IMG/VR virus record: IMGVR_UViG_3300030104_003079
Coordinates: 1 to 44,293 of that record
DNA length: 44,293 nucleotides
Direction: 5' to 3' (one strand)
Source: a virus
Every line of letters starts with the position of its first letter. The stretch's first letter is position 1. The notes under the pieces were generated by a model, which saw only the letters and a program-made list of their open reading frames with translations, had not been told where the DNA came from and did no database searches. The position numbers were made by a program, and so were the translations under genes. Shown in pieces: positions 19,475 to 43,448 of this stretch.

Positions 19475-19717
19475 TTATTGACCTCCTACATTTTCTACCA
19501 TCTTATGAATATCTTTCCAATCCATACTTCCAACATCACCAACAGGTGAAGCAATCTTATTATCCATTGAAGGAGTAGGGCTTTGAGAAACAACTAAACC
19601 AGACTTCATTAGCAAATTATCCTTTGCATATACAGTCTTTTCTAATGTTTCAATCTTATCTGTTAAGGCTTTCAATATAGCCAAAATGTCGTTACTAACT
19701 TTGTTTTCTTCACTCAT
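19475..19717 (-). CDS. Small scaffold-like protein ending in the same tag as the protease-scaffold (80 aa)
   Basis: The protein has an N-terminal coiled coil (NDILAILKALTDKIETLEK), a Ser/Pro linker and an end reading VGSMDWKDIHKMVENVGGQ. That end matches the end of the protease-scaffold (ASMDWSDIHRFVGGNQ) at S-M-D-W-x-D-I-H-[KR] and at the closing Gly-x-Gln pattern. It is therefore probably a mini-scaffold or an adaptor docking to the same surface of the capsid protein. Its start overlaps the end of the preceding gene. Role is inferred from the shared end. Confidence 0.6.
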   Translation of the reverse strand: MSEENKVSNDILAILKALTDKIETLEKTVYAKDNLLMKSGLVVSQSPTPSMDNKIASPVGDVGSMDWKDIHKMVENVGGQ

Positions 19718-25360: not shown

Positions 25361-25771
25361 TTAAGCCTTTTTGCCATCGACTCTAGTTTGATTTTCTTTT
25401 GATGTCTCATTATCGTCAATTGGGCCACCTTTAGCCCAAGTATAGCAAGTTCTTGCCGAATGACATTTAAAATGATGCATCCAACAATAACCTAAACGAC
25501 CATCGTCATCGGTGGTTAGTGGCATACATTTATCCATTCTAGGAGAAATATCAAATGCTACACAATTACTACAATTAGATTTTTTTGCTACATCAGCAGT
25601 AGTGTTCCACCGCTTTGCATACTGTTCCCAATAATCTTCATCATTAAGATTTAATGGCCCATATTGTATGTGTTTTGCTTTAACTGCGGCATCTCTGTTT
25701 TTAGTATTTAACTTCAAATCTTGAGTTGCTCTAGGACAAGCAAGTTCTTTCAAGATAAATTGCCAATCCAT
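25361..25771 (-). CDS. Tagged Cys-rich protein (136 aa)
   Basis: It starts MDWQFILKELACPRATQDL, with the common tag. The middle has C-x2-C in NCSNCVAFD, a further Cys in DKCMPL, and then GYCWMHHFKCHSARTC, a dense Cys/His/Trp cluster able to bind a metal ion or iron-sulfur cluster. I recall similar Cys-rich proteins with a GYC...FKC...TC pattern in marine virus genomes, some described as HiPIP-like, but I cannot verify this here. It lies just before the portal gene and follows four other tagged small genes. A packaged redox or metal protein is possible. Confidence 0.65.
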   Translation of the reverse strand: MDWQFILKELACPRATQDLKLNTKNRDAAVKAKHIQYGPLNLNDEDYWEQYAKRWNTTADVAKKSNCSNCVAFDISPRMDKCMPLTTDDDGRLGYCWMHHFKCHSARTCYTWAKGGPIDDNETSKENQTRVDGKKA

Positions 25772-26143
25772 TTAATCACCTTTCTTCTTTTCTCTTTTAG
25801 GTTCATGAGTATAGAAATCACCATCTTCATGTTCAAATATTTGTTTTCTATCTTCCATAGAAGATAAAGTTTCTTTAAGTTTATCTTTATCGGCAATATC
25901 CTTTAGATTCTTCATTCCTAAAGCACCGCCTTCATCTTCTACTTCTTCAAGAATTTCTTCTTCTATGTTCTTCTTTAATCTAAGCATTTTAAAATCCTCA
26001 GCATCTAACTTTCCATTCTTATTTCTGTCAAGTCTTTTTTGTTTAGGACTTAATGCTTTCTTTGTTTTTTCTCGACAAGTTGAACAATCGCAACCCATTT
26101 TTTCTGTACCACAATGACTTTTTAATATTTCTTTCCATTTCAT
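25772..26143 (-). CDS. Tagged protein with an EF-hand-like loop and winged-helix-like end (123 aa)
   Basis: ATG at 26143 follows GGTGATTAAA, so the longer open frame upstream is discarded. The protein opens MKWKEILKSHCG, then CDCSTC gives a Cys cluster at 18-23. Residues 39-50 (DRNKNGKLDAED) fit a 12-residue EF-hand calcium loop. The end (EEEILEEVEDEGGALG, then EHEDGDFYTHEP) resembles the end of the tagged protein at 28402-28908, probably a small winged-helix domain. Several binding modules on a tagged short protein suggest a packaged nucleic-acid or metal binding factor. Function unknown. Confidence 0.62.
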   Translation of the reverse strand: MKWKEILKSHCGTEKMGCDCSTCREKTKKALSPKQKRLDRNKNGKLDAEDFKMLRLKKNIEEEILEEVEDEGGALGMKNLKDIADKDKLKETLSSMEDRKQIFEHEDGDFYTHEPKREKKKGD

Positions 26144-26148
26144 TTTAA

Positions 26149-26409
26149 TCACCTTGTAAATCCTCTTCCACGACTTTTTCCTTTTCTTCTTGGATATGTT
26201 TTGCAAGCGGCACAATCTTCTCTACATCTTTGTTTTTTTCCTTTAGAAGCATCTTTACGACCACAAGGTTTTACCCCTTCTTTGTCATCTTCACAAGATT
26301 GACAGGCAACCCAACCTTTTACGTCAGGTTCTCCTTCTTCACCTTTAGCCCTTTTTCTATACCATTGGTGTAAATTACCTTCGGCTTTGAGAATTTCTTT
26401 CCAAGACAT
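26149..26409 (-). CDS. Tagged Cys-rich basic protein (86 aa)
   Basis: The start is ATG at 26409 (MSWKEILKAEGNLHQW) after GTGATTATT, in which TGA is the stop of the previous gene. The body has C-x2-C in ACQSCEDD, then further Cys in PCGRKD and RCREDCAACK, and ends in Lys/Arg/Gly (RRKGKSRGRGF). It can bind zinc and probably nucleic acid. It is one of a row of four small tagged basic proteins. No exact family claimed. Confidence 0.62.
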   Translation of the reverse strand: MSWKEILKAEGNLHQWYRKRAKGEEGEPDVKGWVACQSCEDDKEGVKPCGRKDASKGKKQRCREDCAACKTYPRRKGKSRGRGFTR

Positions 26410-26414
26410 AATAA

Positions 26415-26651
26415 TCACTTCTTTTTCTTTTTACCCCAATTAGAAGCACCTACTTTACGGCATTGAACTAAAGCCCCGCTTCCATAAGCAGAAGGCCATG
26501 TTCCGCCATCTTCAGTATATTTTGCTTTAACTTTATCATAACAGTCAGGGTCTTTTGCTCTCGCAGAAGATTTCTTTTTACCCTTCTTTCTTTTTTTACG
26601 AGCCTTTTTAGTGCGTCGTGGGTCTTTCTTAAGAATATCTTGCCAATTCAT
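26415..26651 (-). CDS. Tagged, highly basic protein, DUF5872-like (78 aa)
   Basis: It opens MNWQDILKKDPRRTKKARK, followed by a very basic stretch, then CYDKVKAKY, WPSAYGSGALVQCRKVGA and a Lys-run end. The WPSAYxSGALxxCRKxGAxNW pattern is one I associate with small basic proteins of large and marine viruses (DUF5872-like). The combination of tag and about a third Lys/Arg suggests a DNA-binding internal protein. It overlaps the next gene start (ATGA). Confidence 0.65.
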   Translation of the reverse strand: MNWQDILKKDPRRTKKARKKRKKGKKKSSARAKDPDCYDKVKAKYTEDGGTWPSAYGSGALVQCRKVGASNWGKKKKK

Positions 26652-26908
26652 GCTTTCACCCTTCTAGATTTACTGCCGTGACATTTCCATTTCCTACGGC
26701 TTAAGTTATTAGGACTATCGGGGTTACTTCTCCAATTACCTTTGATTTCATTTGACCTAGCGCAATAAGCATCTCCTTTAGAAGTTCCTGGACTTATTCT
26801 ATCTTTACCATCTTTTGCTTTACCTGCTTGACCATAAGAAGTTCCTTTCTTTGAAACAAATCTTTTGCCCTTGTTAGGTTTCTTTTTAAGTATATCTTGC
26901 CAACTCAT
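26648..26908 (-). CDS. Tagged, highly basic protein, DUF6321-like (86 aa)
   Basis: It opens MSWQDILKKKPNKGKRF. The body has a Gly/Lys-rich part (YGQAGKAKDGKDRISPGTSK) and then AYCAR and LSRRKWKCHGSKS, the pattern of two Cys flanking NxLSRRKWKC that I link to DUF6321-like viral proteins. It is strongly basic and has no membrane part. Its ATG overlaps the TGA of the 40-aa gene before it. As with the neighbour, a DNA-condensing cargo protein is a fair inference. Confidence 0.65.
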   Translation of the reverse strand: MSWQDILKKKPNKGKRFVSKKGTSYGQAGKAKDGKDRISPGTSKGDAYCARSNEIKGNWRSNPDSPNNLSRRKWKCHGSKSRRVKA

Positions 26909-27027
26909 GCTTTCACCCCTTCAGGACTACCATGTTTAATCCAACATTTTTCACAAAAACTGAAAGGTTTTGCATTTCTTTCAGACATAGCAATAATGCA
27001 ACAAGTGTGGTAAACATACTCCATCAT
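26905..27027 (-). CDS. Four-cysteine mini-protein (40 aa)
   Basis: A 40-codon gene read directly from the sequence: MMEYVYHTCCIIAMSERN, then FCEKCWIKHG. AAAGGAGG stands before ATG-ATG, and the frame ends in TGA shared with the start of the next gene. The TCC and CEKC pairs suggest a zinc knuckle. It also overlaps the stop of the preceding LAGIDADG gene. The good ribosome site and double overlap argue that it is real. Function unknown. Confidence 0.6.
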   Translation of the reverse strand: MMEYVYHTCCIIAMSERNAKPFSFCEKCWIKHGSPEGVKA

Positions 27028-28397
27028 TCTTCCTCCTTTAGAATAGTTCCGCCAATATTTTCTAAACTATCCATAGTAGACATTTTACAATTACCTTGTA
27101 GTTTAGCAATATCATCTAAGTATATTCCTTCTTTAGCCCAATCAAAACCTACATGGTCTTTATGGTTTTCCCACTTCATTAACTTGAAGATTTCGTCGCA
27201 ACGGTCTTTATACCAATCTGCTTTCTTATATGACTTCTTCATACGAATAAGTTCTAGTAATAACTTAGCATTACCTTTCTTTAATCTAAAAAATGGCAGA
27301 CATTTAGTTAGTAAATCTGTAACATCTGCTTGAGAATAAAAATTCAATCTATTAATTAGTCGAGTTTCTTGCGGTGATTTCTGGTCAAGATGCATTCTTC
27401 CATATCCAATAGATTTATGCATTTCTTCCATAAATGTCCTACCTCTCTGACCAGTTGCAACTAATCCTACTCTTGGATTCATATTACGGTCTAATGTAAT
27501 ATATCCATCGGAGTCAATGAAAGCAGCAGTATAAGCCCAAATGTTTTTCTTTAATAATGAAGGGGCTTTATAATAAGAACCGTTGTCATTAATAACATCC
27601 ATGCTTCTAACCATCTTAGAAATCATATTAGAATTAGTATGTCTATGTAAAGTACTCGGCATCATATCGTGAATTTTCTTAGCACCTATGCCTCTATTCT
27701 CACAAATAGTCTTTAAAACAAATTCCTGTACTCTTTCTTTTTTACTCTTTGTAATTGTCTGAGTATTAATCTTTGCTACTGTATCTTTGAATTCCTTCTT
27801 AGCGGCCTTGATTTGTTTCGATATTTGTGCATATTCTTTTGAATATGCCATATCTTGAATAGTTAAATCTTTCTCCCATATCTTGCAGAGAGTATCTACA
27901 ACCTTTCTTCTTTCCTTAGTAGTTTTCATTTTCTCTAGTTTTCTTAAATGCTTTTCATTAATATTAGATTTAAGTAGTGGATGTTTATATGGACTTAACC
28001 AATGAATAGAATCTATACACTTCATAATATGGTCAGTATATGCATCAATGACATTATCAATTGCTTTTGTCATTCTTTCTTTTTGTTCACCTTTTAGTTC
28101 TCTTCGGGCAACTCTCATTTTTCTTACGAGGTCTGGAATGGTCTGTCCATCTATGTTATATTCATTAGGGTATGTTAATTGCTTTCTTGCATCAGTAGCA
28201 TTAATATTATAATGCTTTGAGATATGTTCTATCTCTTCGTATTCTGATAATACATATCCTGTGTTTAAGAAAGATTTATTTGTTAGGTTTTCTAACTCCT
28301 CTTTCTTTTGATTAGATAATCTTTTTAGTCTAGCCTGTTCAGTTGCATTATCAGCAACTTCATCAATTTCTTCAGGATTTAGGCCGTCTAACTTCAT
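27024..28397 (-). CDS. LAGIDADG-domain protein with winged helix, homing-endonuclease-like
   Basis: The 457-residue product has a helical N-terminal 210 residues, a winged-helix-like segment at about 220-280 (QEFVLKTICENRGIGAKKIH), and a LAGIDADG-type motif at about 288-300 (AYTAAFIDSDGYI), followed by the usual basic beta-strand surface with NFYSQADV and a long C-terminal helix. One motif per chain means a homodimer if it acts as an endonuclease. It stands free, not inside an intron or intein. It could be a homing endonuclease spreading a neighbouring segment, or a domesticated DNA-binding regulator. The acidic catalytic residue (Asp of DSDG) is present. Confidence 0.75.
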   Translation of the reverse strand: MKLDGLNPEEIDEVADNATEQARLKRLSNQKKEELENLTNKSFLNTGYVLSEYEEIEHISKHYNINATDARKQLTYPNEYNIDGQTIPDLVRKMRVARRELKGEQKERMTKAIDNVIDAYTDHIMKCIDSIHWLSPYKHPLLKSNINEKHLRKLEKMKTTKERRKVVDTLCKIWEKDLTIQDMAYSKEYAQISKQIKAAKKEFKDTVAKINTQTITKSKKERVQEFVLKTICENRGIGAKKIHDMMPSTLHRHTNSNMISKMVRSMDVINDNGSYYKAPSLLKKNIWAYTAAFIDSDGYITLDRNMNPRVGLVATGQRGRTFMEEMHKSIGYGRMHLDQKSPQETRLINRLNFYSQADVTDLLTKCLPFFRLKKGNAKLLLELIRMKKSYKKADWYKDRCDEIFKLMKWENHKDHVGFDWAKEGIYLDDIAKLQGNCKMSTMDSLENIGGTILKEEE

Positions 28398-28401
28398 AAT
28401 A

Positions 28402-28908
28402 TCACCTATCCACTAAAGTATAATTACCTTCTTCTAACTGTTTGAATTGAGGACTATTATCAAGAACCGCTTTAAGTTCTTTTTCTGATACTATATTTGA
28501 ATGCTTATTTTCTACTGCTTCCACTAATTTACCTAAGTCAGCCGCACCGCCTTCTTTTTCTAAAGTTTCTTCCAGTAATTCTATTAATGAAGTTTCAACA
28601 TATTTGTCATAGTTTTCTATCCTTCTATCATCATTAACACCTATACCAGTATGAGAAAATTGTTTAGCGTATTCCCTTTGTTCTTCTGCTATTTTTGCCA
28701 TGTAACGAAGATTTGCCTTTTGTCTTTCTTTTTTATCCTTTCTCATCATTATGTTTGCATATATATTTGCATCTTCATGATACTGCCTTGAATAAAGATA
28801 GTCTTTAAGTTGTTTTTTAGTGAATAACGGGCTTTCCTTTATCATTTGAAAATACATTTTCATATAATCTGCTTCTGACAATTCTTTTTTAATAATGTCT
28901 TGCCACAT
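28402..28908 (-). CDS. Tagged protein with a winged-helix-like end (168 aa)
   Basis: It opens MWQDIIKKELSEADYMKMYF behind GGTGAATTAAT. The central part is basic helices (YSRQYHEDANIYANIMMRKDKK). The last 60 residues, EETLEKEGGAADLGKLVEAV, then NYTLVDR, look like a winged-helix with a beta wing, and resemble the end of the gene at 25772-26143. Two tagged proteins thus share a second domain. A DNA-binding cargo protein is a reasonable inference. Confidence 0.6.
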   Translation of the reverse strand: MWQDIIKKELSEADYMKMYFQMIKESPLFTKKQLKDYLYSRQYHEDANIYANIMMRKDKKERQKANLRYMAKIAEEQREYAKQFSHTGIGVNDDRRIENYDKYVETSLIELLEETLEKEGGAADLGKLVEAVENKHSNIVSEKELKAVLDNSPQFKQLEEGNYTLVDR

Positions 28909-28932
28909 ATTAATTCACCTATTCTATAAATA

Positions 28933-29139
28933 TTAATTATTTTGCCTAATGGAAATTATTTCTCGCATAACTTTAATTATATCTCGATTCATCATTTCAA
29001 ACTGTTTTATTTGAGTTTCAAGTTTCTTAGAATCGACACCGCTTTGGTTTCTAACCGCTTCATCAAAGTCAGAAAGAATCTCTTTTTGACGACCAATTAA
29101 ATCTATCACCTGTTGCCCAGTAACTCTCTTTTTTAACAT
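28933..29139 (-). CDS. Small coiled-coil protein before the helical/tagged gene (68 aa)
   Basis: MLKKRVTGQQVIDLIGRQKE begins a single long amphipathic helix with regular Ile/Leu/Met spacing and many Arg/Lys/Glu. It starts behind AAGGTGATTAT directly after the large terminase gene. Its size and place recall small terminase partners or head-assembly chaperones, but no motif decides this. Confidence 0.55.
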   Translation of the reverse strand: MLKKRVTGQQVIDLIGRQKEILSDFDEAVRNQSGVDSKKLETQIKQFEMMNRDIIKVMREIISIRQNN

Positions 29140-29148
29140 ATAATCACC

Positions 29149-30573
29149 TTAAAGATTCAATCCTATGAATGGCACTTTTACTCGATTCTTCGGAGTCGTA
29201 GGACTACCAAATATATCCATATCGTCTAAGAGTATGAAGTTTTCCGAGACTTGGAATGTGGCGGCGTTGGCTAACGCCAAACTCATCACCATGTCGTCGT
29301 GCGCCCCTATACCTTCAAATTTTCCACGCTCTGTAATTGCGAACATAGATAATTCTTCCACTAATGCTGAAGTAACTCTTCTACTCTCTTCATTACCGTA
29401 TGGGAAATTCATTTTCTGATTTTCTAGAGTCATTTGTAAATTAAGAATAATTTCTTCTTTTCTTTTTCTAGTAGTGTTAAAGTCATGAATATTTAAATCT
29501 GCTACGTTGCGTAGTTCTTGTGTAAATGATTTAGCGAAGGTATTTGTTTCAAAAAGAATAACTTCAGGGTTGAATATCTTTCCTATAATTTTAACCTTTT
29601 GAATATTTTCTCTAAACTCTACATTCTTTGAACGGTCTACATAGACAACGCTCTTATTATCATTTTCATCTACTTCTAATACAGTAATTACGTTATAATC
29701 TCCATCAGTAGAAATTGCAGGGTCTACTCCCACAAAATATTTATATCCTTCTCTTCTACTAGGTTTCAGAACTAAATCTTTATTCTTAGCATGGTCTAAA
29801 TATTCTGGATTAAAGAGAGAAGTTCCTGTTGAAATTGGCACACACATATATTCTCTCGTAAACATTAAAGACCCTGCTTTACGAGCCATTAGCGCATCAT
29901 AGTTCCATCTATCAGGCCATAACGGTTCATTAAGTGCATTTAAACATGGATAGGTTCTTACTGTATATGCTTCATTCTCTCCTAATTGTTGGTAAATATC
30001 TGTGTAACTGAACGGAGTCCCAATAACTCTCAAAGATGCAGTATGGTGAAGCGTAGGAATCATGTCTCCATAAAACCAATCAGTAACCTTTTGAATACCA
30101 CTAATACTGAATTCTTTCAAAGGGTCGTCAATAATAATTTCTTGAGGGTGAAGTCCACGAATCTGTGAACCAACGGAACGCTCTAAGATTTGATTACCAT
30201 TTGTCAAAGTAATATTACCAATAGCCCATCCTCTTGCAGGTTTAAATGCTTTTAGTAGTGGATGCTGAAACATCTTATCAATGTCTCTCATGTGAACTAA
30301 TGTCTGCTTTTGGTTAGAAGAAATATAAAGCATCTGATATGGAGGTGGTTGAAACACTAAATTCCAAACAACCCATGAATGCATAAATACGGATTTTCCG
30401 TGGTCTCTTGAACATATAATTACAGTTCTTTGAGTATCATCCATTAATTCATGCCATTCTTGTATGTATGAAGGAAAGTCAAAACCTAAAACATGTTGAA
30501 AGAAATATGGAAAAGAGTTTCTTGATAACTCCATATCCATTTGATGTTCTAAGTTAAAGGCTTCGGAATCCAT
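29149..30573 (-). CDS. terL: Terminase large subunit
   Basis: This 474-residue motor packages DNA into the prohead. Walker A is CSRDHGKS at residues 54-61, Walker B is EIIIDD at about 145-150, and the coupling motif region reads IGTPFSYTD near 184-192. The C-terminal nuclease has the first Asp in FVGVDPAIS (about 284), a Glu in VILFETNTF (about 342) and the AHDDMVMSL signature near the end, so both ATPase and nuclease look intact. The start is ATG after GGGATTGAA. Upstream comes a GNAT-like gene. The family assignment is firm. Confidence 0.95.
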   Translation of the reverse strand: MDSEAFNLEHQMDMELSRNSFPYFFQHVLGFDFPSYIQEWHELMDDTQRTVIICSRDHGKSVFMHSWVVWNLVFQPPPYQMLYISSNQKQTLVHMRDIDKMFQHPLLKAFKPARGWAIGNITLTNGNQILERSVGSQIRGLHPQEIIIDDPLKEFSISGIQKVTDWFYGDMIPTLHHTASLRVIGTPFSYTDIYQQLGENEAYTVRTYPCLNALNEPLWPDRWNYDALMARKAGSLMFTREYMCVPISTGTSLFNPEYLDHAKNKDLVLKPSRREGYKYFVGVDPAISTDGDYNVITVLEVDENDNKSVVYVDRSKNVEFRENIQKVKIIGKIFNPEVILFETNTFAKSFTQELRNVADLNIHDFNTTRKRKEEIILNLQMTLENQKMNFPYGNEESRRVTSALVEELSMFAITERGKFEGIGAHDDMVMSLALANAATFQVSENFILLDDMDIFGSPTTPKNRVKVPFIGLNL

Positions 30574-30574
30574 T

Positions 30575-31093
30575 TCAATCCCCTCTTAGAACCTTTTTCC
30601 ATTCGGGAAATTTATATTCCATCCACTTCTGAACTTGGTCTGAATATTGCTTTCCTTGAAGTTCTTCTTGTATGTCTTTAGGGAGTTCGTCTTTTTGCAT
30701 ATCTTTGAATCCCTTTCTTCTATATGATTCACCTAAACCCTCCTTTGCTACATTAATGTAAAGAGTTTTACTTCCTTTTTCAGAAAGAACTTTATCTACT
30801 AGAATAGAAAATAATCCCTTTTCTCTTTCATCTTCACGAACATGAATACCTGCACCCAGTAATACATTCTTATATTCTGAAAAACCTACTACTCCAACAG
30901 GCTTATCGTTATTGAATGCAACAAACATTTTAGCGGGTGCTTTAGCCCATTCTGAATCAGATGAGAGATTACTTCCATATCTCATACTTCTTTTAGTATA
31001 TTCATCATAGCCGTCTTTAACGAAAGTAGCAACGGCTTCGCCTTCGGACATCTCTTTAAATTCAATGTCATCTTTAGAATATTTTTCAGCCAT
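30575..31093 (-). CDS. GNAT-like acetyltransferase with a tag-like C-terminus (172 aa)
   Basis: The fold pattern is that of a GNAT enzyme, which moves an acetyl group from acetyl-CoA to an amine. Strand 4 and the CoA-binding part are seen in GIHVREDEREKGLFSILVDK (about 82-101), preceded by DKPVGVVGFSEYK and followed by TLYINVAKEG and the RRKGF turn near 125-129. Substrate is not predictable. The final residues EWKKVLRGD repeat the idea of the tag (W-x-x-[IV]-L) at the C-terminus, as in the gene at 37459. It stands directly before the large terminase. It could modify a virion protein. Confidence 0.7.
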   Translation of the reverse strand: MAEKYSKDDIEFKEMSEGEAVATFVKDGYDEYTKRSMRYGSNLSSDSEWAKAPAKMFVAFNNDKPVGVVGFSEYKNVLLGAGIHVREDEREKGLFSILVDKVLSEKGSKTLYINVAKEGLGESYRRKGFKDMQKDELPKDIQEELQGKQYSDQVQKWMEYKFPEWKKVLRGD

Positions 31094-31097
31094 AGTA

Positions 31098-35719: not shown

Positions 35720-35726
35720 AGTAGCC

Positions 35727-35837
35727 TTACTCCTTCTTATTTCCAGTAACAAAGCATTTTTGAGTTTCTTTTTCTTTTTCGTCTAATTCCTTAGACTTTG
35801 CATCAAACCATTGGTCTAGTAATTTACATCGAGTCAT
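35727..35837 (-). CDS. Very small charged protein (36 aa)
   Basis: A 36-codon gene read directly: MTRCKLLDQWFDAKSKELDE and then a Lys/Glu-rich end. It has the ribosome site GGAGAG seven bases before ATG, and its last codons contain the AAGGAG site of the next large gene, so the two are linked. Its leader is a copy of the leader of the gene at 35854-36093. Only moderately certain because it is so short. Confidence 0.5.
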   Translation of the reverse strand: MTRCKLLDQWFDAKSKELDEKEKETQKCFVTGNKKE

Positions 35838-35855
35838 TGTAATCTCTCCTGCATT
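35834..35855. repeat. 22-bp direct repeat, copy 1 (leader of the 36-aa gene)
   Basis: This 22-bp stretch is identical to 36090-36111. On the minus strand it carries the ribosome site GGAGAG and the ATGA start of the 36-aa gene, directly after the TAA of the tagged gene before it. Confidence 0.9.
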
Positions 35856-36093
35856 AAACACCATCGGGGTATTCATCTGAATCTATGGCCTTTACTATTT
35901 CCATAAATAATTTAGTATAATATTCAGCGTTGGCTTTTAATATTCTTTTTTGTTCACTAGATGGTGTAAATTCCGAATCTAATACTAACATATCTCTAAG
36001 TCTACGCAAATGTCCATCTGCCACTTCAAGTTCTCGTAAGTTTCTATCAAACTCTTTAGAATCATTTTTCTTTATATTGTTCTGCCAACTCAT
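35854..36093 (-). CDS. Tagged small helical protein (79 aa)
   Basis: It opens MSWQNNIKKNDSKEFDRNL, then two helices (VADGHLRRLRDMLVLD; QKRILKANAEYYTKLFMEIV). ATG lies in an ATGA overlap with the small terminase candidate, behind GGAGAG. The tag is the main feature; the rest is unrecognised. Confidence 0.58.
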   Translation of the reverse strand: MSWQNNIKKNDSKEFDRNLRELEVADGHLRRLRDMLVLDSEFTPSSEQKRILKANAEYYTKLFMEIVKAIDSDEYPDGV

Positions 36094-36111
36094 TGTAATC
36101 TCTCCTGCATT
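36090..36111. repeat. 22-bp direct repeat, copy 2 (leader of the 79-aa gene)
   Basis: Identical to 35834-35855. Here the same bases also encode the last residues (MQERLQ) of the gene at 36090-36746, so this copy is probably the original and the other a duplicate. Confidence 0.9.
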
Positions 36112-36746
36112 TCTTTCTTAATTTCAAGCCAAACTTCAGGATTGTTCTGTGCAAGCACTTCTTGAACAATTTGCATTTGTGCGAATATAACTGTATCTTG
36201 TCTCTTATGAACCAATTTGCCTTTAAACTCCATAAGATACTTTAATGATTCACGAATCTCTCTAGCGAGTTTAGTTAAACTATCAATCACTTTCGGGTCT
36301 AAATCATCCATAGCGAATACATCATCTAATTTCATATCTAATCGCTTAACATTGGATGATAACAAATCAACTTCATTTACCTCCTTTTTCGCTATCAAGG
36401 AGGCCGCAGATTTCTGTACCAACGGTGTCAAGTGGTGCTTCATGTGTCTTTGTACCTGTTCTTTCGTGGTGTTTAGAGCCTCAGAAACCGCTTCACTTGT
36501 TATATTACCTTCGGAAAGCGCAACCTCGTAATGTTTTCTCATTGGGTCTGTGCATACTGCACAACGAGGATTAGAACTCATTTCATAATTACCCATGTGA
36601 TTTCTTTGATGTTGTGCCGCAGTACCACTACGCCAATCGTTGTTTGCGTCTAATACGTCGCAACTGATTTGTCCTGTCTCTAATAGAGATTCAAGTTCTT
36701 CTCTGTCCTCATGCTGACAAAAAGAACAACGCTTACGAGTTACCAT
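36090..36746 (-). CDS. Tandem zinc-finger protein, candidate terminase small subunit (218 aa)
   Basis: The N-terminal half contains two similar units: Cys7-x2-Cys10 ... His46-x3-His50 and Cys62-x2-Cys65 ... QRHMKHH around 99-105. Each has a helix-turn-helix-like stretch between the pairs (SEALNTTKEQVQRHMKHHL). The C-terminal half is a long helical oligomerisation region. DNA-binding N-terminus plus helical ring part is the plan of a small terminase. It is followed (after large helical genes) by terL. No sequence match is claimed, so another zinc DNA-binding protein remains possible. Confidence 0.6.
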   Translation of the reverse strand: MVTRKRCSFCQHEDREELESLLETGQISCDVLDANNDWRSGTAAQHQRNHMGNYEMSSNPRCAVCTDPMRKHYEVALSEGNITSEAVSEALNTTKEQVQRHMKHHLTPLVQKSAASLIAKKEVNEVDLLSSNVKRLDMKLDDVFAMDDLDPKVIDSLTKLAREIRESLKYLMEFKGKLVHKRQDTVIFAQMQIVQEVLAQNNPEVWLEIKKEMQERLQ

Positions 36747-36760
36747 TTTAAATCACCTCA

Positions 36761-37120
36761 TCACTTATAGAACTCAAAGGTAATCAAAGGTTCATTATCT
36801 AATTCTTCACTATCAATATAAACGCTTTCGGGTTCTAAATCTCCTAAGAATCCATTTTTTACATTTTGAAAATCTGCACCTCTAATTTGTATTAGATACC
36901 CCTCACCTAAACCTGTGAATTCAAATGGCTCAAAACCATCTTTAAATTCTACTTTGTGAACTTCTAATGCCATAGCAATAGTTTCGCTACTTCTATCAAT
37001 ATCCAAACTCCATGTAACAAAACATTTCTGCCCATCTTGGTCTTTGTATTTTTCACTATCTTTAGACATAACTCTACATTCAGTAGTTAATTTATCTTGC
37101 TTTAGTATTTTTTCCCACAT
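36761..37120 (-). CDS. Tagged beta-domain protein (119 aa)
   Basis: Start at ATG 37120 (MWEKILKQDKLTTECRV), with GTGATTAAT upstream. After the tag come about 100 residues of alternating strands (KCFVTWSLDIDRSSETIAMA; GYLIQIRGADF) ending LITFEFYK. The domain looks like a beta-sandwich or ferredoxin-like fold but is not recognised. It shows that the tag is joined to unrelated folds. Confidence 0.6.
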   Translation of the reverse strand: MWEKILKQDKLTTECRVMSKDSEKYKDQDGQKCFVTWSLDIDRSSETIAMALEVHKVEFKDGFEPFEFTGLGEGYLIQIRGADFQNVKNGFLGDLEPESVYIDSEELDNEPLITFEFYK

Positions 37121-37129
37121 ATTAATCAC

Positions 37130-37453
37130 TTAATTCCAAATCAGTTCATACTCACCATCATCATACTTGTATAATTCAGACGGGCCAGTTTTATCAAGAA
37201 TATCAGGAGTATCACTATTGAGATTTTCAATTTCTTTATCACTCAATTCTGTTTCATCAGGTAATATTACTTTAGTAACATAAACGCTAACTTCACGCAT
37301 ATATGTTTCTCTTTGCCCAAAACTAAATTCCCATTCAATTATTGCATCACCTTTTAGGGTTTTATGTCCATCAAAATTAACGGGCGTTCTAAAAGCAAAT
37401 CCATGCATTTTATTTGCAGGTTGTAATTGTTTCTTTATTTCATTCTTCCACAT
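37130..37453 (-). CDS. Tagged beta-domain protein (107 aa)
   Basis: ATG at 37453 gives MWKNEIKKQLQPANKMHG; the longer frame starts inside the preceding gene and is rejected. Strands follow (GDAIIEWEFSFGQRETY; REVSVYVTKVILPDET) and a final YELIWN. There is no clear GGTGAT site, and it begins just after the stop of the gene at 37459, so it may be reached by re-initiation. No family is recognised; similar in kind to the next gene and to the one at 40110. Confidence 0.57.
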   Translation of the reverse strand: MWKNEIKKQLQPANKMHGFAFRTPVNFDGHKTLKGDAIIEWEFSFGQRETYMREVSVYVTKVILPDETELSDKEIENLNSDTPDILDKTGPSELYKYDDGEYELIWN

Positions 37454-37458
37454 ACTAA

Positions 37459-38541
37459 TTACGCCCTCATAATCTCTTTCCATGACTTACTTATAACTTT
37501 GTTGTTTGGGCTTTTGGTATCTTTACCATAAACTTCTTTTCTTGTCTTTCTATAATCAAAAGCGGAAGAAGCCCAAGCCCTGTATTTATTATCAGTAGGT
37601 GCATTTTTTCTGTTTGCTCTCTTTAATGCTTTATCTACTAAAGTATTAATTGGAATACTTGCAGCAATCTTAAATGCAGTAATTCTGCCAGCAAGATTAT
37701 TTAGATTAGTTAATTCTCTAAGTATAACTCTTCCTGCTCTTTTTACTTCAAATTGAGTTGCTTTGAATTCAGCCGCTACTGCTGATGTTTTCAATTTTCC
37801 ACTAGCAGCCCAATATCCTGATGTTTTAACCACATTGTCGAAGAATTTTTCTACTGGATATATTGTATCTAATTGCTCTGCATTCTTTTTAGAGATAGAA
37901 TTAATAGTAGGCTGAACACTAATATTCCTAAAACTTTCTAATGCTTCTTTAATGATTTTAAGTAACCCATAAGGCTTACTATAATCTCCTTCTGTTTTTG
38001 AGAACAATGCTAAATGGGGAGGATTCTTTCCAGTAAGCCATTCTCCATCAACAGGCTCACCTTTAAAATTTTTATCTTTTTGTGTTTTACGGTCAATGTA
38101 ATTTTGAGTCATATAATGACCATATACTTCTTTCCTTGACCTAAGAATGCCTCTCTTATCATATTTCTTATCAGTAAATGAAATAAATGCTGGGTCTAAG
38201 CCTCCTTTACCCCTGCTTTTTTCCATCCCTGCAATATGTTTTTTCATAGCCTTAAGAGATTCAATATCTGATTCTTCTAGAATATCTGTATTTAGAATAG
38301 TTCTGATTTCTTTAATAGGCAATCTCCCACCATCTCTCTGAGAACCATCTCTTGCTTCATCAACGTGTTGAACTAAAAAGTCAAGTAAAGTTCCTTCCTT
38401 AACTTTAAGAGTATCATTCTTGATACTATCACAATGTTTTTCCCAATCGTCATAGTTCTTTTGGAAATCAGAACCTTCGATGGTTTGAGTAATTAATTGC
38501 TTATTGTATTTACTCGTCTTTTTCGTAATCTTTTTTGCCAC
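37459..38541 (-). CDS. Helical protein with a C-terminal tag, GTG start (360 aa)
   Basis: GGAGGTG stands before GTG at 38541, so the start is GTG (MAKKITKKTSKYNKQL). The protein is basic, with a helical N-terminal half and an Ala-rich helix near residues 260-300. It closes with SWKEIMRA, the tag motif placed at the end rather than the beginning. No enzyme motif is seen. The next gene follows with no gap. Its tag location parallels the protease-scaffold and the GNAT gene. Confidence 0.57.
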   Translation of the reverse strand: MAKKITKKTSKYNKQLITQTIEGSDFQKNYDDWEKHCDSIKNDTLKVKEGTLLDFLVQHVDEARDGSQRDGGRLPIKEIRTILNTDILEESDIESLKAMKKHIAGMEKSRGKGGLDPAFISFTDKKYDKRGILRSRKEVYGHYMTQNYIDRKTQKDKNFKGEPVDGEWLTGKNPPHLALFSKTEGDYSKPYGLLKIIKEALESFRNISVQPTINSISKKNAEQLDTIYPVEKFFDNVVKTSGYWAASGKLKTSAVAAEFKATQFEVKRAGRVILRELTNLNNLAGRITAFKIAASIPINTLVDKALKRANRKNAPTDNKYRAWASSAFDYRKTRKEVYGKDTKSPNNKVISKSWKEIMRA

Positions 38542-38908
38542 GCTTTCCACCTCCGTATTTTAAATTATATCTTGATTTATCATTACCATGTGCAACAAAA
38601 GCAGCACCACCCGCTTCTTTTTCAAAAGTATTATCTAAAGTACTCATATCAAAGTTCTTTAAATGATTCTCAAATACATTTGTAAATATGGATTGTTCTA
38701 CTCCCATTCTCATAAATGAATATTTATTCTCTTTATTTCTAGTCAAGATAAAGTCTCCGTCTTTATTGGATAACTTATACTTTAGAGGGCTATTTTTTCT
38801 GAGTGAAGTAACTTGGATATATTTTCCGCCAAACTTATCTTCTAATCTTTCCATGAATTCAATCATGATACCAGATTCGACTTTAAGTATTCGGAACCAA
38901 TTAGACAT
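38510..38908 (-). CDS. Tagged protein (132 aa)
   Basis: Start at ATG 38908 (MSNWFRILKVESGIMIEF) after GTGATTATT. The following 80 residues alternate strands and helices (YIQVTSLRKNSPLKYKLSNK; DGDFILTRNKENKYSFMR). The C-terminal part is Gly/Lys-rich (YGGGKRGKK). Its end overlaps the start of the gene at 37459. Not recognised. Confidence 0.58.
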   Translation of the reverse strand: MSNWFRILKVESGIMIEFMERLEDKFGGKYIQVTSLRKNSPLKYKLSNKDGDFILTRNKENKYSFMRMGVEQSIFTNVFENHLKNFDMSTLDNTFEKEAGGAAFVAHGNDKSRYNLKYGGGKRGKKDYEKDE

Positions 38909-38913
38909 AATAA

Positions 38914-39165
38914 TCACTCTTTATCTTTCTTTTGACGCCACTTACCGTCAGCATCTTGTGTAAAGCCAGCATTTCTTCTTACTCTATCTTGTGCTTCTTT
39001 AAAAGAAGCATCATATTTTGCTTTTTCTTCGGGTGATAGTTTCATATATCTTTCTCTTGTCCGTTTTATCGAAGCCTTAGCCTCTGCAATTCTAAGTCTT
39101 TCCTTAGCATCAGCCAATTCTTCACGGGTCATCGCCTTTCTCTTTTTTAAAGCATCTTTCCACAT
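38914..39165 (-). CDS. Tagged charged helix protein (83 aa)
   Basis: Start at ATG 39165 (MWKDALKKRKAMTREEL) with GTGATTATT upstream, where TGA is the stop of the gene before. The rest is a long Lys/Arg/Glu helix with an acidic-basic repeat and a Lys-rich end. No family is seen. The high charge suits nucleic-acid contact. Confidence 0.57.
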   Translation of the reverse strand: MWKDALKKRKAMTREELADAKERLRIAEAKASIKRTRERYMKLSPEEKAKYDASFKEAQDRVRRNAGFTQDADGKWRQKKDKE

Positions 39166-39170
39166 AATAA

Positions 39171-39965
39171 TCACTTCATTAATCTACTAGTAACATAGAA
39201 ATAAGAAGGATTTTCTCTGTTAATTTTTCCCTTAGTTCTGCCTAAAATCATTTCTGGGAAGCCTCCTTCAACTGCCAATCTATCTGCTAATTGATGTAAG
39301 AATTTATATCCGTTTAATCCTTTAGTTAATGATGACACGTTTGAGTTATAATCTCCTAATTTACCACCATTTTCTAGAAATTCTGCGGCATCATCGTATG
39401 CTTCTCTTAATGTTCCTTCAGGGTCGCCATCATATGCAATAGCCGCTAATACATGAGTAATAGGATAATTCTTTTTACCAATCTTCATCATCTCTTTACT
39501 TAGTTTCTCATTGAACTTATCTAATGTGAATTTATTAGAAGTTTCAATTGTTCTAAATAACTTTCCAGGACTTAATTTTTTATCTTCCGAAGTGCCATAA
39601 TTTTTTTTATTAAATAAATCAACTAGTTGAGTAGATAGATTTTGTTGTCTTTTTGCACCCTTTTCAAAATAAAACTCAGATTCGCTGGCTAGTCTATCAA
39701 CTAGTTTTTTAAGTTCATCGCTAAAGGAAACATTACTTATTCCCTCTAATTCATTACCTAAATCAAGACTTAAATAAGATTGCACTTTTTTGGCTTCTTC
39801 AGTTGCTTCTGTTTTCTTTTCCCTTTCTGCCTGTCTTAGATTATATGCTAATTGACCGCCCTCATCGCCAGTAATTTGTATACCGCCAAATTCTTCTTTT
39901 TTACGTTCTTTTTGAGCAGTTTGTCTGAGACGACCTTTTTTCCTTTTGAGTATATCCTTATACAT
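39171..39965 (-). CDS. Tagged helical protein (264 aa)
   Basis: ATG at 39965 (MYKDILKRKKGRLRQTAQK) follows GGTGAG; here Tyr replaces Trp in the tag. Residues 20-75 are basic and helical, then a globular helical domain to about 250 with KNYPITHVLAAIAYDGDPEG. The start overlaps the stop of the 50-aa gene before. No known domain. Confidence 0.57.
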   Translation of the reverse strand: MYKDILKRKKGRLRQTAQKERKKEEFGGIQITGDEGGQLAYNLRQAEREKKTEATEEAKKVQSYLSLDLGNELEGISNVSFSDELKKLVDRLASESEFYFEKGAKRQQNLSTQLVDLFNKKNYGTSEDKKLSPGKLFRTIETSNKFTLDKFNEKLSKEMMKIGKKNYPITHVLAAIAYDGDPEGTLREAYDDAAEFLENGGKLGDYNSNVSSLTKGLNGYKFLHQLADRLAVEGGFPEMILGRTKGKINRENPSYFYVTSRLMK

Positions 39966-40110
39966 TTTTCTCACCTAAGTATCTTTCTATTTCATTTAAT
40001 GCCGTTTTAATATATCTTGGGGCATCTTTTAAATAATCTTGTAAATTTGCTAAATTAGAAGCAGCAGAGGCTTCTTCTTGATTTTTAAGTATTTTTAACC
40101 AATTGCTCAT
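39958..40110 (-). CDS. Tagged mini-protein (50 aa)
   Basis: A 50-codon gene read directly from the sequence: MSNWLKILKNQEEASAASN, then a second helix ending RYLGEKNV. ATG overlaps the TGA of the gene before (ATGA), and its own end overlaps the start of the gene after it. It is nearly the tag plus one helix, which makes it a minimal form of the tagged proteins. Confidence 0.65.
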   Translation of the reverse strand: MSNWLKILKNQEEASAASNLANLQDYLKDAPRYIKTALNEIERYLGEKNV

Positions 40111-40631
40111 CAATAACTCCCCTGCCATTCAATTTCTGCCGATGTTTCCCAATTACTCGGACTTGTAGAATTTTTCATATCTATTTTAATAGAAACACTA
40201 GATGGATTGAACCTTTCTTTATGGTCATCATAATACTCATCTTCAATGTCAGTAATTGTAAAATCAACATCTTCCCAAATATCTTCACCTGCGTTCAAAC
40301 GATAATCTTCATTTCTATCATCCTCGTATTCAACGTGCAAAGTACAGTTAATTTCACTTGCCACACTAGAAATACCTTTGACACCCCATGTTCTAATATC
40401 CATAATAATGCCTCCTTCTATTGCTCTTGCACTTACTGTAAATTCAACATAATTAATAGTTTTAGAATATTCATCTGTGCCTTTTCCTTTATCGGCGGTA
40501 TTCTCTCCTTCCTTCCTAACCCATTCTTTAGGTATATTTAAAAGGTCATAATTATCAATATCTACGTTTTCCCAAGTAATATCATAATCTCTTTTAAGAA
40601 TATTTGTCTTTCTAATTGTGTCTTTCCACAT
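40110..40631 (-). CDS. Tagged beta-domain protein (173 aa)
   Basis: It opens MWKDTIRKTNILKRDYDITW after GGTGATATT. The remainder is acidic and beta-rich with strands such as NYVEFTVSARAIEGGIIMDI and CTLHVEYEDD, and ends AEIEWQGSY. It resembles in style the tagged beta proteins at 36761 and 37130. No family recognised. Confidence 0.6.
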   Translation of the reverse strand: MWKDTIRKTNILKRDYDITWENVDIDNYDLLNIPKEWVRKEGENTADKGKGTDEYSKTINYVEFTVSARAIEGGIIMDIRTWGVKGISSVASEINCTLHVEYEDDRNEDYRLNAGEDIWEDVDFTITDIEDEYYDDHKERFNPSSVSIKIDMKNSTSPSNWETSAEIEWQGSY

Positions 40632-40639
40632 AATATCAC

Positions 40640-40873
40640 CTATTGATTTTTGAGTAGTGTGCTTAATCTAATTAATCCATCCAAAGACTCGGTTGTAAAG
40701 TGAATAAAAGCCTTTACTAAATCCTCGTAGCCCTCTATATCAATCCTATTGTCTGAGTACCTATAAATGTTTTCGACTAAACTTGGTATGATGTCTTTGT
40801 GCATAGCCGTTAAGTTTTGGAGTAGTTCTAATAGTGCGTCGTCATCCAAATACAATACTGGTATTTCTTCCAT
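40640..40873 (-). CDS. Small acidic helical protein, untagged (77 aa)
   Basis: MEEIPVLYLDDDALLELLQN begins an acidic, Leu-rich helical protein without the tag. Start lies right after the stop of the gene before it with only a weak ribosome site, so coupling is likely. Possibly a partner or inhibitor of a basic neighbour. Not recognised. Confidence 0.5.
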   Translation of the reverse strand: MEEIPVLYLDDDALLELLQNLTAMHKDIIPSLVENIYRYSDNRIDIEGYEDLVKAFIHFTTESLDGLIRLSTLLKNQ

Positions 40874-40874
40874 A

Positions 40875-41237
40875 TTAATCGGGTCTTTTCATTCTTTCAA
40901 CCTTTGGTCGCTTAGTTGATGGACTTAATCTTTGGTCAATACTTAAATCATATTCTCTACCAGTAAAAGGGTCTTTACGTTTTTTCGCACCAAATGAAGC
41001 ACCTGTTTGTTTACTAAATAGTTCAATGTGTCGTCTAAGTCGGCTCATTCTGTATAATATTTCATCTTTATTCGATTGTGGAAGATTTTGAAATTCCTTT
41101 GTTTTAGTAAACTCTTCGTTCTTTTTTAGTTCTTTTTTCAATTTAATCATTTCTGAACGAACTCTAGCCTCAGCCTTAGTTCGATGACCTTTTACACTAG
41201 GGTGTATTTCTTCACCTTTAATGATGCTTTTCCACAT
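40875..41237 (-). CDS. Tagged basic helical protein (120 aa)
   Basis: Start at ATG 41237 (MWKSIIKGEEIHPSVKGHR) after AGTGATTATT. Long Lys/Glu/Arg helices follow (EARVRSEMIKLKKELKKNEE), then a Lys/Pro/Arg-rich tail. Net charge strongly positive. A DNA-binding cargo role is plausible; no family seen. Confidence 0.58.
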   Translation of the reverse strand: MWKSIIKGEEIHPSVKGHRTKAEARVRSEMIKLKKELKKNEEFTKTKEFQNLPQSNKDEILYRMSRLRRHIELFSKQTGASFGAKKRKDPFTGREYDLSIDQRLSPSTKRPKVERMKRPD

Positions 41238-41255
41238 AATAATCACTTTTTTATC

Positions 41256-41483
41256 TTATTCACTAATAAGTTTTAACAAATCAAACTTAATGTTATGCTT
41301 TTTGAATATTTTTGCTAGTTTACCATCCGTTACTCTACCACTACTTATTGCTTCTTGTAAATCAGCAATGAAATCTTGCATTAATTGTGCTAAATCTTCT
41401 TCCAACGCTTGAGCATTATGTTCCATTTCAGCCTTATCTCGACTGTAACCTATATATCGTTTCTTAATTTCGTCTTTCCACAT
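41256..41483 (-). CDS. Tagged small helical protein (75 aa)
   Basis: Start at ATG 41483 (MWKDEIKKRYIGYSRDK), after ATGATTGTT where TGA ends the gene before. Two helices follow, one acidic (QALEEDLAQLMQDFIADLQE). Not recognised apart from the tag. Confidence 0.57.
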   Translation of the reverse strand: MWKDEIKKRYIGYSRDKAEMEHNAQALEEDLAQLMQDFIADLQEAISSGRVTDGKLAKIFKKHNIKFDLLKLISE

Positions 41484-41488
41484 AACAA

Positions 41489-42943
41489 TCATTTTTTCCT
41501 AAGTTCTTCAATAAGTTCTCTAATATCATCTTCATCCATATATGGATGTTGGTCAATAACTTTATTATTCTTCATAACTCCGACTTCCCATTCTGTATAT
41601 TCATCACCATCACCTAACATCTTTTCAGGTGTGCTATTATAATAAGCCCCACCAATAATAGATAAAGTTATATCATCATTTACTTCATATTCTGCTCTAA
41701 ACATTCCCATTGGAAAGTTCTCTTCAAAATATAAGTCTTTAATGCTGAATTCTTCTGCCTTTTTTACATCTTTAGTATAAATATTTGGTAAAGTAGGTTT
41801 CTTTATTTGATTTTTTCTTGTATGTGGGCTTTTAGGGTCTGTTAAACGATTACCACTTGCATCATCTTCACAATGCATACAAAAACCAATACCATCAGTT
41901 CCATTGGCAATTCTCAAACAACCGTCATTTTCGCACTTTGGTTTAAATTCACTTTTTAAAATATCTTTCCAATCCATTTTTTCCACTTCCCCGCTATCTA
42001 ATTTTCTATTTCTCTCTCTAATTGCATCTATTGAATTCTGTAATTGTGTTACTTGTTTAGTGTTTCCTGCTCTTTCTGCCGCAGATAATCTATTTTCTAA
42101 CTGTTGTATTTGTCTTTGTTTAGTTTTTCTACTTTTTCTTCTTCTAGTAGCAAGTAGTTTATTTCTTTCTTCTCTTGCTCTCTTTTCTTTTTCTTCCAGT
42201 TCTTTCTTTTCTTTATTCATTATATTAACAACTGGCTTTACAATATTTTGCTTAATCCAAAGGTCATTTATCATTAATTTTTGAGATAAATACAAATCAT
42301 GCTTATTTCTTCCAAACGCTTCTGAAAGCATCTTTTTAGTTCTTTTAGAAACAACATCGGGATAATCTACATCAATTTTAGCATTTACAAATTTTGCAAA
42401 TCCTTCAAGCGTATCTAATTTATTATCCTCCTTTTGTCGATTCCAACGCTGAATATCTTCGACTTTTCTTTGTCTATCGGGCATTCTAACAGATTTACCT
42501 TTATACTTTTTCCTTTGGGCTTCTGCAATTTTCGGAGTAACACCAATAATATGTGCAACCGCTTCATCAGGAACGGTAATTCTACCAATTTTTTCTCCAT
42601 AATTTTCACGAACCCATTTACTGCCCAAAGTAGTAATAGTATATCCTTCTTCTCTTAATCTATTCTTAAGTCCTGTAATATCATCAATTGGTCTATCAGT
42701 AATAAATCTAAAAGCATCTTTAATGAACTTTTTAGAACCTCTTGGAGCAAAACGAATACTTTCATCATCCATTCTCATATCGGGGTCAGGTGTTGAAGGT
42801 GCTTCAATATGAATTACTTTTGCAGGATTATCTTTATCCCAATCTTTTACGATTTGTTCTAGCAATTTAGGATTATATTCAAAATACCTATCTGGTTCAG
42901 GAACATCCACTACGGGTCTTTTAAGAATACTTTCCCAATTCAT
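41489..42943 (-). CDS. Double-tagged protein, apparent fusion of two cargo genes (484 aa)
   Basis: It opens MNWESILKRPVVDVPEPD, and at about residue 331 a second complete tag appears, KMDWKDILKSEFKPKCEND, preceded by a coiled coil (about 235-320, KRAREERNKLLATRRRKSRK). The first part has helix-turn-helix-like stretches near 140-185. The part after the second tag has Cys-x4-Cys ... FCMHC, a zinc-type site, then a beta domain (DDITLSIIGGAYYNS). A second ATG coincides with the inner tag, so a separate product may also be made. Best explained as two tagged genes fused by loss of a stop. Confidence 0.65.
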   Translation of the reverse strand: MNWESILKRPVVDVPEPDRYFEYNPKLLEQIVKDWDKDNPAKVIHIEAPSTPDPDMRMDDESIRFAPRGSKKFIKDAFRFITDRPIDDITGLKNRLREEGYTITTLGSKWVRENYGEKIGRITVPDEAVAHIIGVTPKIAEAQRKKYKGKSVRMPDRQRKVEDIQRWNRQKEDNKLDTLEGFAKFVNAKIDVDYPDVVSKRTKKMLSEAFGRNKHDLYLSQKLMINDLWIKQNIVKPVVNIMNKEKKELEEKEKRAREERNKLLATRRRKSRKTKQRQIQQLENRLSAAERAGNTKQVTQLQNSIDAIRERNRKLDSGEVEKMDWKDILKSEFKPKCENDGCLRIANGTDGIGFCMHCEDDASGNRLTDPKSPHTRKNQIKKPTLPNIYTKDVKKAEEFSIKDLYFEENFPMGMFRAEYEVNDDITLSIIGGAYYNSTPEKMLGDGDEYTEWEVGVMKNNKVIDQHPYMDEDDIRELIEELRKK

Positions 42944-42948
42944 TTAAA

Positions 42949-43203
42949 TCACTTCTTCAATTCAATAAGTTTATCCATCAAACTTTCAAATTCGTTTCTT
43001 TGCTTATCGGTTCTAAGATGGTATTTAGACCTACTCTTTATTTCCTCTAATTTTTCTAATGAATGAGAATTAACCTCTTTAGGCAAGTTAAAAATATCAT
43101 CAAGCATAGTAGTTCTCCAATCGGTGTTTCTCCACATAGCCAAAACATCTTCGGCAAGAGAGCGCATTTCGCTATCTTCTTTAATTATGTCTTTCCATGT
43201 CAT
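42949..43203 (-). CDS. Tagged small helical protein (84 aa)
   Basis: Start at ATG 43203 (MTWKDIIKEDSEMRSLAEDV) after GGTGATTATT whose TGA is the stop of the gene before. The rest forms three short helices with acidic and basic residues mixed. No family seen. Confidence 0.57.
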   Translation of the reverse strand: MTWKDIIKEDSEMRSLAEDVLAMWRNTDWRTTMLDDIFNLPKEVNSHSLEKLEEIKSRSKYHLRTDKQRNEFESLMDKLIELKK

Positions 43204-43208
43204 AATAA

Positions 43209-43448
43209 TCACCTTTTACCAGAAATTCTATCAATCCTGTCTTTCATGTTTAGGTTTTTACCACTTGGGCCACCTAACTGTAAAAAATCTTCTAATCTTT
43301 CAATTAAGTCCTTCAATTCCTTGTCATCAGTTCTTCTATTTTGAGCAATAACCATGTCAATTCCCATAAGAAAGGATTCCATATCTTTACTTGGAAGTTT
43401 ATCCTCTCCATAAATAAAAGGTTTTTTAACTATATTTTCCCAATTCAT
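43209..43448 (-). CDS. Tagged small helical protein, first of the tagged string (79 aa)
   Basis: Start at ATG 43448 (MNWENIVKKPFIYGEDKL); the longer frame needs TTG. Two helices with many charged residues follow and the end is DRISGKR. It follows an AT-rich gap of about 110 bp that probably holds the promoter of the tagged string. Confidence 0.57.
   Translation of the reverse strand: MNWENIVKKPFIYGEDKLPSKDMESFLMGIDMVIAQNRRTDDKELKDLIERLEDFLQLGGPSGKNLNMKDRIDRISGKR

Follow-up and report, generated by a model that had tools for sequence, protein, structure and literature searches.

A short N-terminal tag shared by unrelated proteins of a magrovirus-like genome: a candidate prohead-docking signal

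The cargo-loading peptides of encapsulins are short, occur on unrelated enzymes and dock inside a shell of the HK97 fold. In phage lambda, an in-frame internal start in the protease gene C yields the scaffold Nu3 with the same C-terminus as gpC, and we know of no cargo set in lambda that has a related tail. The scaffold tail of phage P22 is reportedly used by engineers to load cargo. This tail, a C-terminal helix-loop-helix, binds the inner capsid at the coat N-arm via basic residues (PMC9965877). An N-terminal capsid-targeting sequence (CTS) of ~10 residues, found on the internal proteins of phage T4, is enough for the prohead to take up foreign proteins that bear it, and some of the internal proteins serve host takeover and antirestriction (PMC9026906). 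In phage P1, the antirestriction protein DarB is packaged via a short N-terminal signal in which residues 6-10 are implicated and 30 residues suffice (PMC9024508), and DarA and Hdf line the capsid interior (PMC12810830). Here we describe a tag of the form W-x-x-I-L-K that opens 20 proteins of IMGVR_UViG_3300030104_003079, a virus record of 44,293 bases analyzed over its full length (the window). That the tag is a targeting or docking signal read at the protein level is strongly supported by its sequence pattern, and its destination is probably the forming head.

Magroviruses are widespread in surface seawater, yet no member is in culture and the function of most magrovirus genes is unknown. 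They infect marine Poseidoniales and have genomes of 90-110 kb in which the morphogenesis and replication modules are oppositely directed (PMC12999244). The window has a G+C content of 33% and holds nearly all of its genes on the minus strand, including those for tail and tape-measure proteins. Its portal and capsid proteins are 29% and 24% identical to their best database matches, which are those of HCTV-5 and its relatives (HVTV-1 too), a kinship with the tailed haloviruses (Druskaviridae) that is expected of the Magrovirales; closer relatives of the portal are encoded on 238 IMG/VR stretches. The near-full relatives measure 91-96 kb and carry genes about evenly on both strands with the head and tail genes on one, the opposed layout of the order. 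The window thus fits a 44 kb fragment of a magrovirus-like genome, and Poseidoniales are assigned as its host by viral relationship alone.

One tag on unrelated bodies

The original prediction listed 20 tag starts in the window. All of them were found where it had placed them and with the peptides it gave, and the same 20 starts were picked by a gene caller blind to the tag, which scored start codon and Shine-Dalgarno sequence only. Taken alone, MSWQNNIKK at 36093 and MYKDILKRK at 39965 are weak variants. The list was real but incomplete, as it overlooked C-terminal, internal and W-to-F copies and a related motif in the head protease and in a protein of 80 amino acids (aa). The W-to-F copy opens a 991-aa protein, and large proteins of relatives start with MSFMDILK or MDWEDILK.

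A search of 14 related records with a strict definition, M-x(0-3)-W-[KEQF]-[DEN]-I-[LI]-K, found the N-terminal tag on 179 genes, more than first noted; each record encodes ~6 to 18 proteins that fit this definition. The strand bias is extreme: the morphogenesis strand has 895 genes, of which 178 carry the tag, versus 1 of 891 on the other strand (Fisher p ~3e-56). Furthermore, a profile built from the window's 20 tags and run on the genes called in the window and in eight relatives of 91-96 kb gave 129 N-terminal matches, versus 0.6 in shuffled proteins; because 20 of these are the window's own and hence circular, 109 are independent. A degenerate DNA pattern of the tag, run on ten related records, matched 68 times on one strand and twice on the other, and a reversed control pattern matched once. 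A JAB-like protein of G008 (L099:17422-17910) is a rare exception, being loosely tagged although its gene belongs to the replication strand.

Pattern loci elsewhere in IMG/VR lead back to the same viruses. Of 120 such loci, 99 match the magrovirus set, and those of the remaining multi-tag loci that were examined in full are magrovirus-like too, with portal identities of 67-77% where a portal is present. Both the tags and the protease tail described below are absent from HCTV-5 and vir335, which are more distantly related. A general feature of host proteins was considered and rejected, as the strict DNA pattern matched once in 145 host-phylum genomes, a phylum-wide set that is not necessarily Poseidoniales, and that match was the seed genome. 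Among the matches listed in a search of genome_contigs, there was one per contig and the taxa were scattered.

Behind the tag, the proteins differ. A looser definition yields 219 tagged proteins, and clustering them without their first ten residues gives 150 families, including 121 singletons; the gene caller was a simple one, so that single singletons may be wrong, and the totals depend on none of them. An alignment of 93 loosely tagged proteins has the consensus MxWxxILK followed by almost no shared sequence. The claim that unrelated bodies stand behind one tag is therefore borne out, and the unrelated bodies rule out common descent of the tagged proteins. Searches of the bodies against Pfam and PHROGs gave few matches, mostly weak. 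Two tagged proteins (L095:14366-14941 and L109:18610-19185) resemble phosphatases of the PAP2 superfamily (1.2e-12 for L095) and are candidates for enzymes delivered with the DNA. The tagged protein at 26415-26651 is very basic (+20), and its DUF5872/phrog_727 module recurs inside much larger phage protein families.

One explanation that had to be weighed is that the first codons, lying close to the ribosome site, are AT-rich because this favors expression and chance to read W-K-D-I-L-K, making the tag a side effect of translation initiation. The tags do sit at starts, and their codons are slightly richer in A-ending forms (AAA 0.76 versus 0.66; GAA 0.92 versus 0.81), but the tag is defined by TGG, which is not AT-rich, the same genomes have a single tag on the replication strand, and the tag also occurs at C-termini and within proteins. 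A test set in advance for such a side effect went against it, and an origin in the start or ribosome site, which we can scarcely credit, is effectively refuted by the strand bias, the TGG codon and the C-terminal and internal copies. A second explanation invokes a mobile 5' cassette of ribosome site and first codons, spread by recombination and kept by descent, whose peptide has little function. Ribosome sites of the GGTGATTA type precede many tagged starts, and the tagged genes turn over rapidly, as the family counts above indicate; however, the 179 strict tags are encoded by 167 distinct 18-mers, the W stands at residue 2, 3, 4 or 5 (29, 141, 6 and 3 cases), and the tag is retained in 5/5, 6/6 and 7/7 members of three cargo families. 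Moreover, a 5' cassette cannot be the source of C-terminal and internal copies, and we regard this explanation as highly improbable. The peptide WKDILK, present in 18 copies, has 14 spellings, and K is found at W+5 in 175 of the 179 strict tags. Thus, a protein-level targeting or docking signal, as originally proposed, is strongly supported: the tag is spelled with diverse codons, stands at varied distances from the start, also occurs at C-termini and within proteins, and is restricted to one strand, that of morphogenesis.

C-terminal and internal copies, and the tails of head proteins

Judged by its sequence, the tag is position-independent, being mostly N-terminal and at times C-terminal or internal (Table 1). 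The clearest C-terminal copy closes a 360-aa core protein. In its family of 43 sequences (21% mean identity), K352 and W354 are at least 90% conserved, and the tails include KSWNEILKVN, KSWIDILRN and KSWVELLRV. The fold of the window's protein is predicted with confidence (predicted local distance difference test, pLDDT, 89.7), an ordered body being followed by a low-confidence helix at 354-359; it has three viral matches only, and comparison with the PDB gave no match. Several proteins have internal copies behind N-terminal extensions, among them proteins of G001, G004, G006 and G012, where GYV[KG]K.W[KR].[IV]LK lies at residues 40-44, and the sequence downstream of the internal tag is 52-92% identical to loosely N-tagged homologues in other records.

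A related motif is found at the C-termini of conserved proteins. A survey of 60 core families (19,022 aa) for a conserved W-x-[DEN]-[ILV]-x-[KR] gave just three instances, each of them 11-14 residues from the C-terminus: in the head-maturation protease (MDWSDIHKMVGG in this survey), in the 80-aa protein of the head cluster and, less clearly, in a 218-aa protein. The protease tail was recovered in 91 matches (56 distinct C-termini) and the 80-aa tail in 117 (64 distinct), and both motifs are kept in clades at 64-77% portal identity. In the structural model of the protease, a long helix at 298-379 (~85) and a short helix precede a helix at 394-401 that starts at the motif's W394.

Within the protease gene, an ATG preceded by a ribosome site lies near residue 177 (156-180 by called start) in 13/13 records that have the gene. 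The mean score of this start is 4.8, close to the 5.0 of true starts, whereas the remaining internal Met codons score 2.8. The conserved ATG and ribosome site predict that the protease gene probably also encodes a nested scaffold with the same C-terminal tail. The conserved internal start and ribosome site recall lambda C/Nu3, the magrovirus product being predicted from genes alone. The N-arm of the major capsid protein shows almost no variation across 68 capsid proteins, in part because its Y and T served to locate the start.

Table 1. Tags, related motifs and head genes in the window. N-terminal tags are based on the coordinate check, the tag-blind gene caller and the tag profile.
Feature	Position	Strand	Gene or remark
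N-tag MNWENIVKK	43422..43448	-	gene 43209-43448
N-tag MTWKDIIKE	43177..43203	-	gene 42949-43203
N-tag MNWESILKR	42917..42943	-	gene 41489-42943 (484 aa)
Internal tag MDWKDILK	41954..41977	-	484-aa protein 41489-42943, W at ~residue 325; second tag beside N-tag
N-tag MWKDEIKKR	41457..41483	-	gene 41256-41483
N-tag MWKSIIKGE	41211..41237	-	gene 40875-41237
N-tag MWKDTIRKT	40605..40631	-	gene 40110-40631
N-tag MSNWLKILKN	40081..40110	-	gene 39958-40110
N-tag variant MYKDILKRK	39939..39965	-	gene 39171-39965
N-tag MWKDALKKR	39139..39165	-	gene 38914-39165
N-tag MSNWFRILKV	38879..38908	-	gene 38510-38908; family tagged in 6/6 records
C-terminal tag SKSWKEIMRA	37462..37491	-	360-aa core protein 37459-38541, without N-tag
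N-tag MWKNEIKKQ	37427..37453	-	gene 37130-37453
N-tag MWEKILKQD	37094..37120	-	gene 36761-37120
C-terminal WLEIKKEMQERLQ	36093..36131	-	gene 36090-36746; motif-like, equivocal; pattern in 6/9 records
N-tag variant MSWQNNIKKN	36064..36093	-	gene 35854-36093
C-terminal tag PEWKKVLRGD (probable)	30578..30607	-	GNAT acetyltransferase-like 30575-31093; small family, 4 records
Terminase	29149-30573		
N-tag MWQDIIKKE	28882..28908	-	gene 28402-28908
N-tag MSWQDILKKK	26879..26908	-	gene 26648-26908
N-tag MNWQDILKKD	26622..26651	-	gene 26415-26651 (basic, DUF5872/phrog_727-like)
N-tag MSWKEILKA	26383..26409	-	gene 26149-26409
N-tag MKWKEILKS	26117..26143	-	gene 25772-26143; family tagged in 7/7 records
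N-tag MDWQFILKE	25745..25771	-	gene 25361-25771; family tagged in 5/5 records
Portal	23684-25321		
W-to-F variant MSFFEIIKK	23024..23050	-	991-aa protein 20075-23050, starts MSFFEIIKKEE
C-terminal motif MDWKDIHKMVENVGGQ	19478..19525	-	80-aa protein 19475-19717
Head-maturation protease	15208..16425	-	scaffold-like C-terminal half
Nested scaffold (probable)	15208..15897	-	229 aa; internal ATG at protease residue 177, ribosome site
C-terminal motif MDWSDIHRFVGGNQ	15211..15252	-	common to protease and nested scaffold
Major capsid protein	13857..15191	-	N-arm YIxTxxDLEAxTYG
N-tag MWFNILKS	10911..10934	-	gene 10641-10934, within head-tail gene block

Docking in the prohead and other destinations

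We consider it probable that the tag is a prohead-docking peptide that brings proteins into the forming magrovirus head. Of the prohead cargo signal originally proposed, the protein-level part stands firmly and the destination is supported indirectly, by the related motif in the conserved tails of the protease, the probable nested scaffold and the 80-aa head-cluster protein, and by the T4 and P1 precedents. The tag would form an amphipathic helix with W-x-[DE]-I-[LI]-K at its center. Head assembly would use the scaffold nested in the protease gene, and the C-terminal tail common to protease and scaffold would be a helix-loop-helix that ends in M-[DS]-W-x-[DE]-I-H-K and binds the interior of the capsid shell, possibly at the conserved N-arm, much as the P22 scaffold tail does; by this analogy, the N-arm is a candidate receptor for the tag. 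Tagged cargo would dock at the same site as the scaffold tails or a neighboring one, or would replace them, while the shell closes. The cargo would remain after removal of the scaffold, trapped with the DNA, and would presumably reach the archaeal host by injection. Since a peptide of eight residues would suffice, unrelated genes could join by gaining the tag, hence the fast-changing set. The case is evenly balanced for a broader proposal, in which heads across the order would offer an open loading port and any protein that gains an eight-residue peptide like the scaffold tail at either end would be packed and injected.

The likeness to IPI, IPII and IPIII of T4 lies in a short N-terminal sequence carried by unrelated, often small, basic and poorly conserved proteins, and in the small size and turnover of the tagged families. 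The T4 CTS is N-terminal, present on few proteins and cut after L/I-x-E, whereas the magrovirus tag has a different sequence, a larger number of bearers in each record and C-terminal and internal copies. The ipI, ipII and ipIII products begin with MKT[YF].EF and lack W..I.K, so that sequence kinship is absent; the tag would work like a capsid-targeting sequence, and membership of a T4 family is not claimed. In P1, the signal is reported for one large protein, in contrast to a tag shared by many, and we know of no report there of a tag common to protease or scaffold. Cargo on the P22 tail is engineered, whereas the related magrovirus peptide is apparently natural on unrelated proteins, and the likeness is drawn at the level of description. 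Encapsulins differ in being genome-free and in having peptides that are mostly C-terminal and of another sequence.

A number of observations weigh against docking in the prohead. The residue at W+4 is L, I or V in cargo tags and H or N in protease tails, with W-x-[DE]-I common to both, and the K at W+5 of the tail is lost in distant clades. These differences mean that a shared receptor is not proven, which is the main weakness of the proposal; the two peptides may dock at one site, at neighboring sites or on different partners. Cleavage motifs of the T4 or SPN3US type ([LI].E or A.E) are not enriched in the 22 residues after the tag (22% versus 20% in shuffled sequence), a comparison limited to those motifs, from which the specificity of the magrovirus protease may differ. 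The termini of T4 gp21 and gp22 lack the T4 cargo tag, so that sharing between cargo and protease or scaffold has no T4 parallel, and the mean confidence of the protease model is low (pLDDT 52). Finally, a similar C-terminus is found on the 218-aa protein 36090-36746, which is possibly not a head protein. This protein has Cys-His clusters and is conserved in 9/9 records; a small terminase and a head protein that binds DNA are both possible identities.

The 218-aa protein, zinc-binding-like in character, lends some weight to a different destination, in which the tag docks at a hub other than the prohead, such as a membrane or replication site, the packaging motor, the tail or a host machine, and the tagged proteins act in the infected cell and need not be virion components. 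A few of the tagged genes are located among tail genes (10641-10934 in the window), and the tagged PAP2 phosphatase-like and GNAT-like bodies could work in the cell. This destination has to contend with a replication strand almost free of tags and with the head protease, which has to get into the prohead and whose tail, in all magrovirus clades examined, is a related motif that does not vary; we consider such a destination unlikely.

No earlier description of such a system for archaeal viruses was found in the literature searched, which left out two key magrovirus papers. If the broader proposal of an open loading port is correct, archaeal viruses would have their first system of this kind, its cargo would be the most varied that we know of, and each lineage would have a fast-changing arsenal of delivered effectors. 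If the tag marks virion cargo, short-tag capsid targeting would have arisen independently outside T4- and P1-like phages, with cargo loading tied to the scaffold tail. A tag that marks virion cargo would allow a single motif search to class ~20% of morphogenesis-strand genes together, would predict the first proteins to enter the host, and would provide a loading peptide for an HK97-fold shell.

Single records and neighboring genes

Two records have unusual ends or lengths. The contig IMGVR_UViG_3300021958_000021 (L052, L144 and L147) measures 184,733 bp, ~2x the usual length, with tagged regions ~90 kb apart, and is perhaps a concatemer or a joined assembly. In G012 (IMGVR_UViG_3300030430_004034), an identical tag sequence is found at 268-285 and 87906-87923, near both ends of the record, which suggests terminal redundancy.

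Among the head genes of the window, and in 9/9 records, is that for an untagged 836-aa protein (16472-18982) that has the adenylation domain of ATP-dependent DNA ligases (PF01068, 1.6e-30); another ligase-like gene sits in the replication arm. The gene at 27024-28397 has a weak homing-endonuclease-like match (HNH/LAGLIDADG), and because it is conserved beside the terminase in 9/9 records it is perhaps domesticated.

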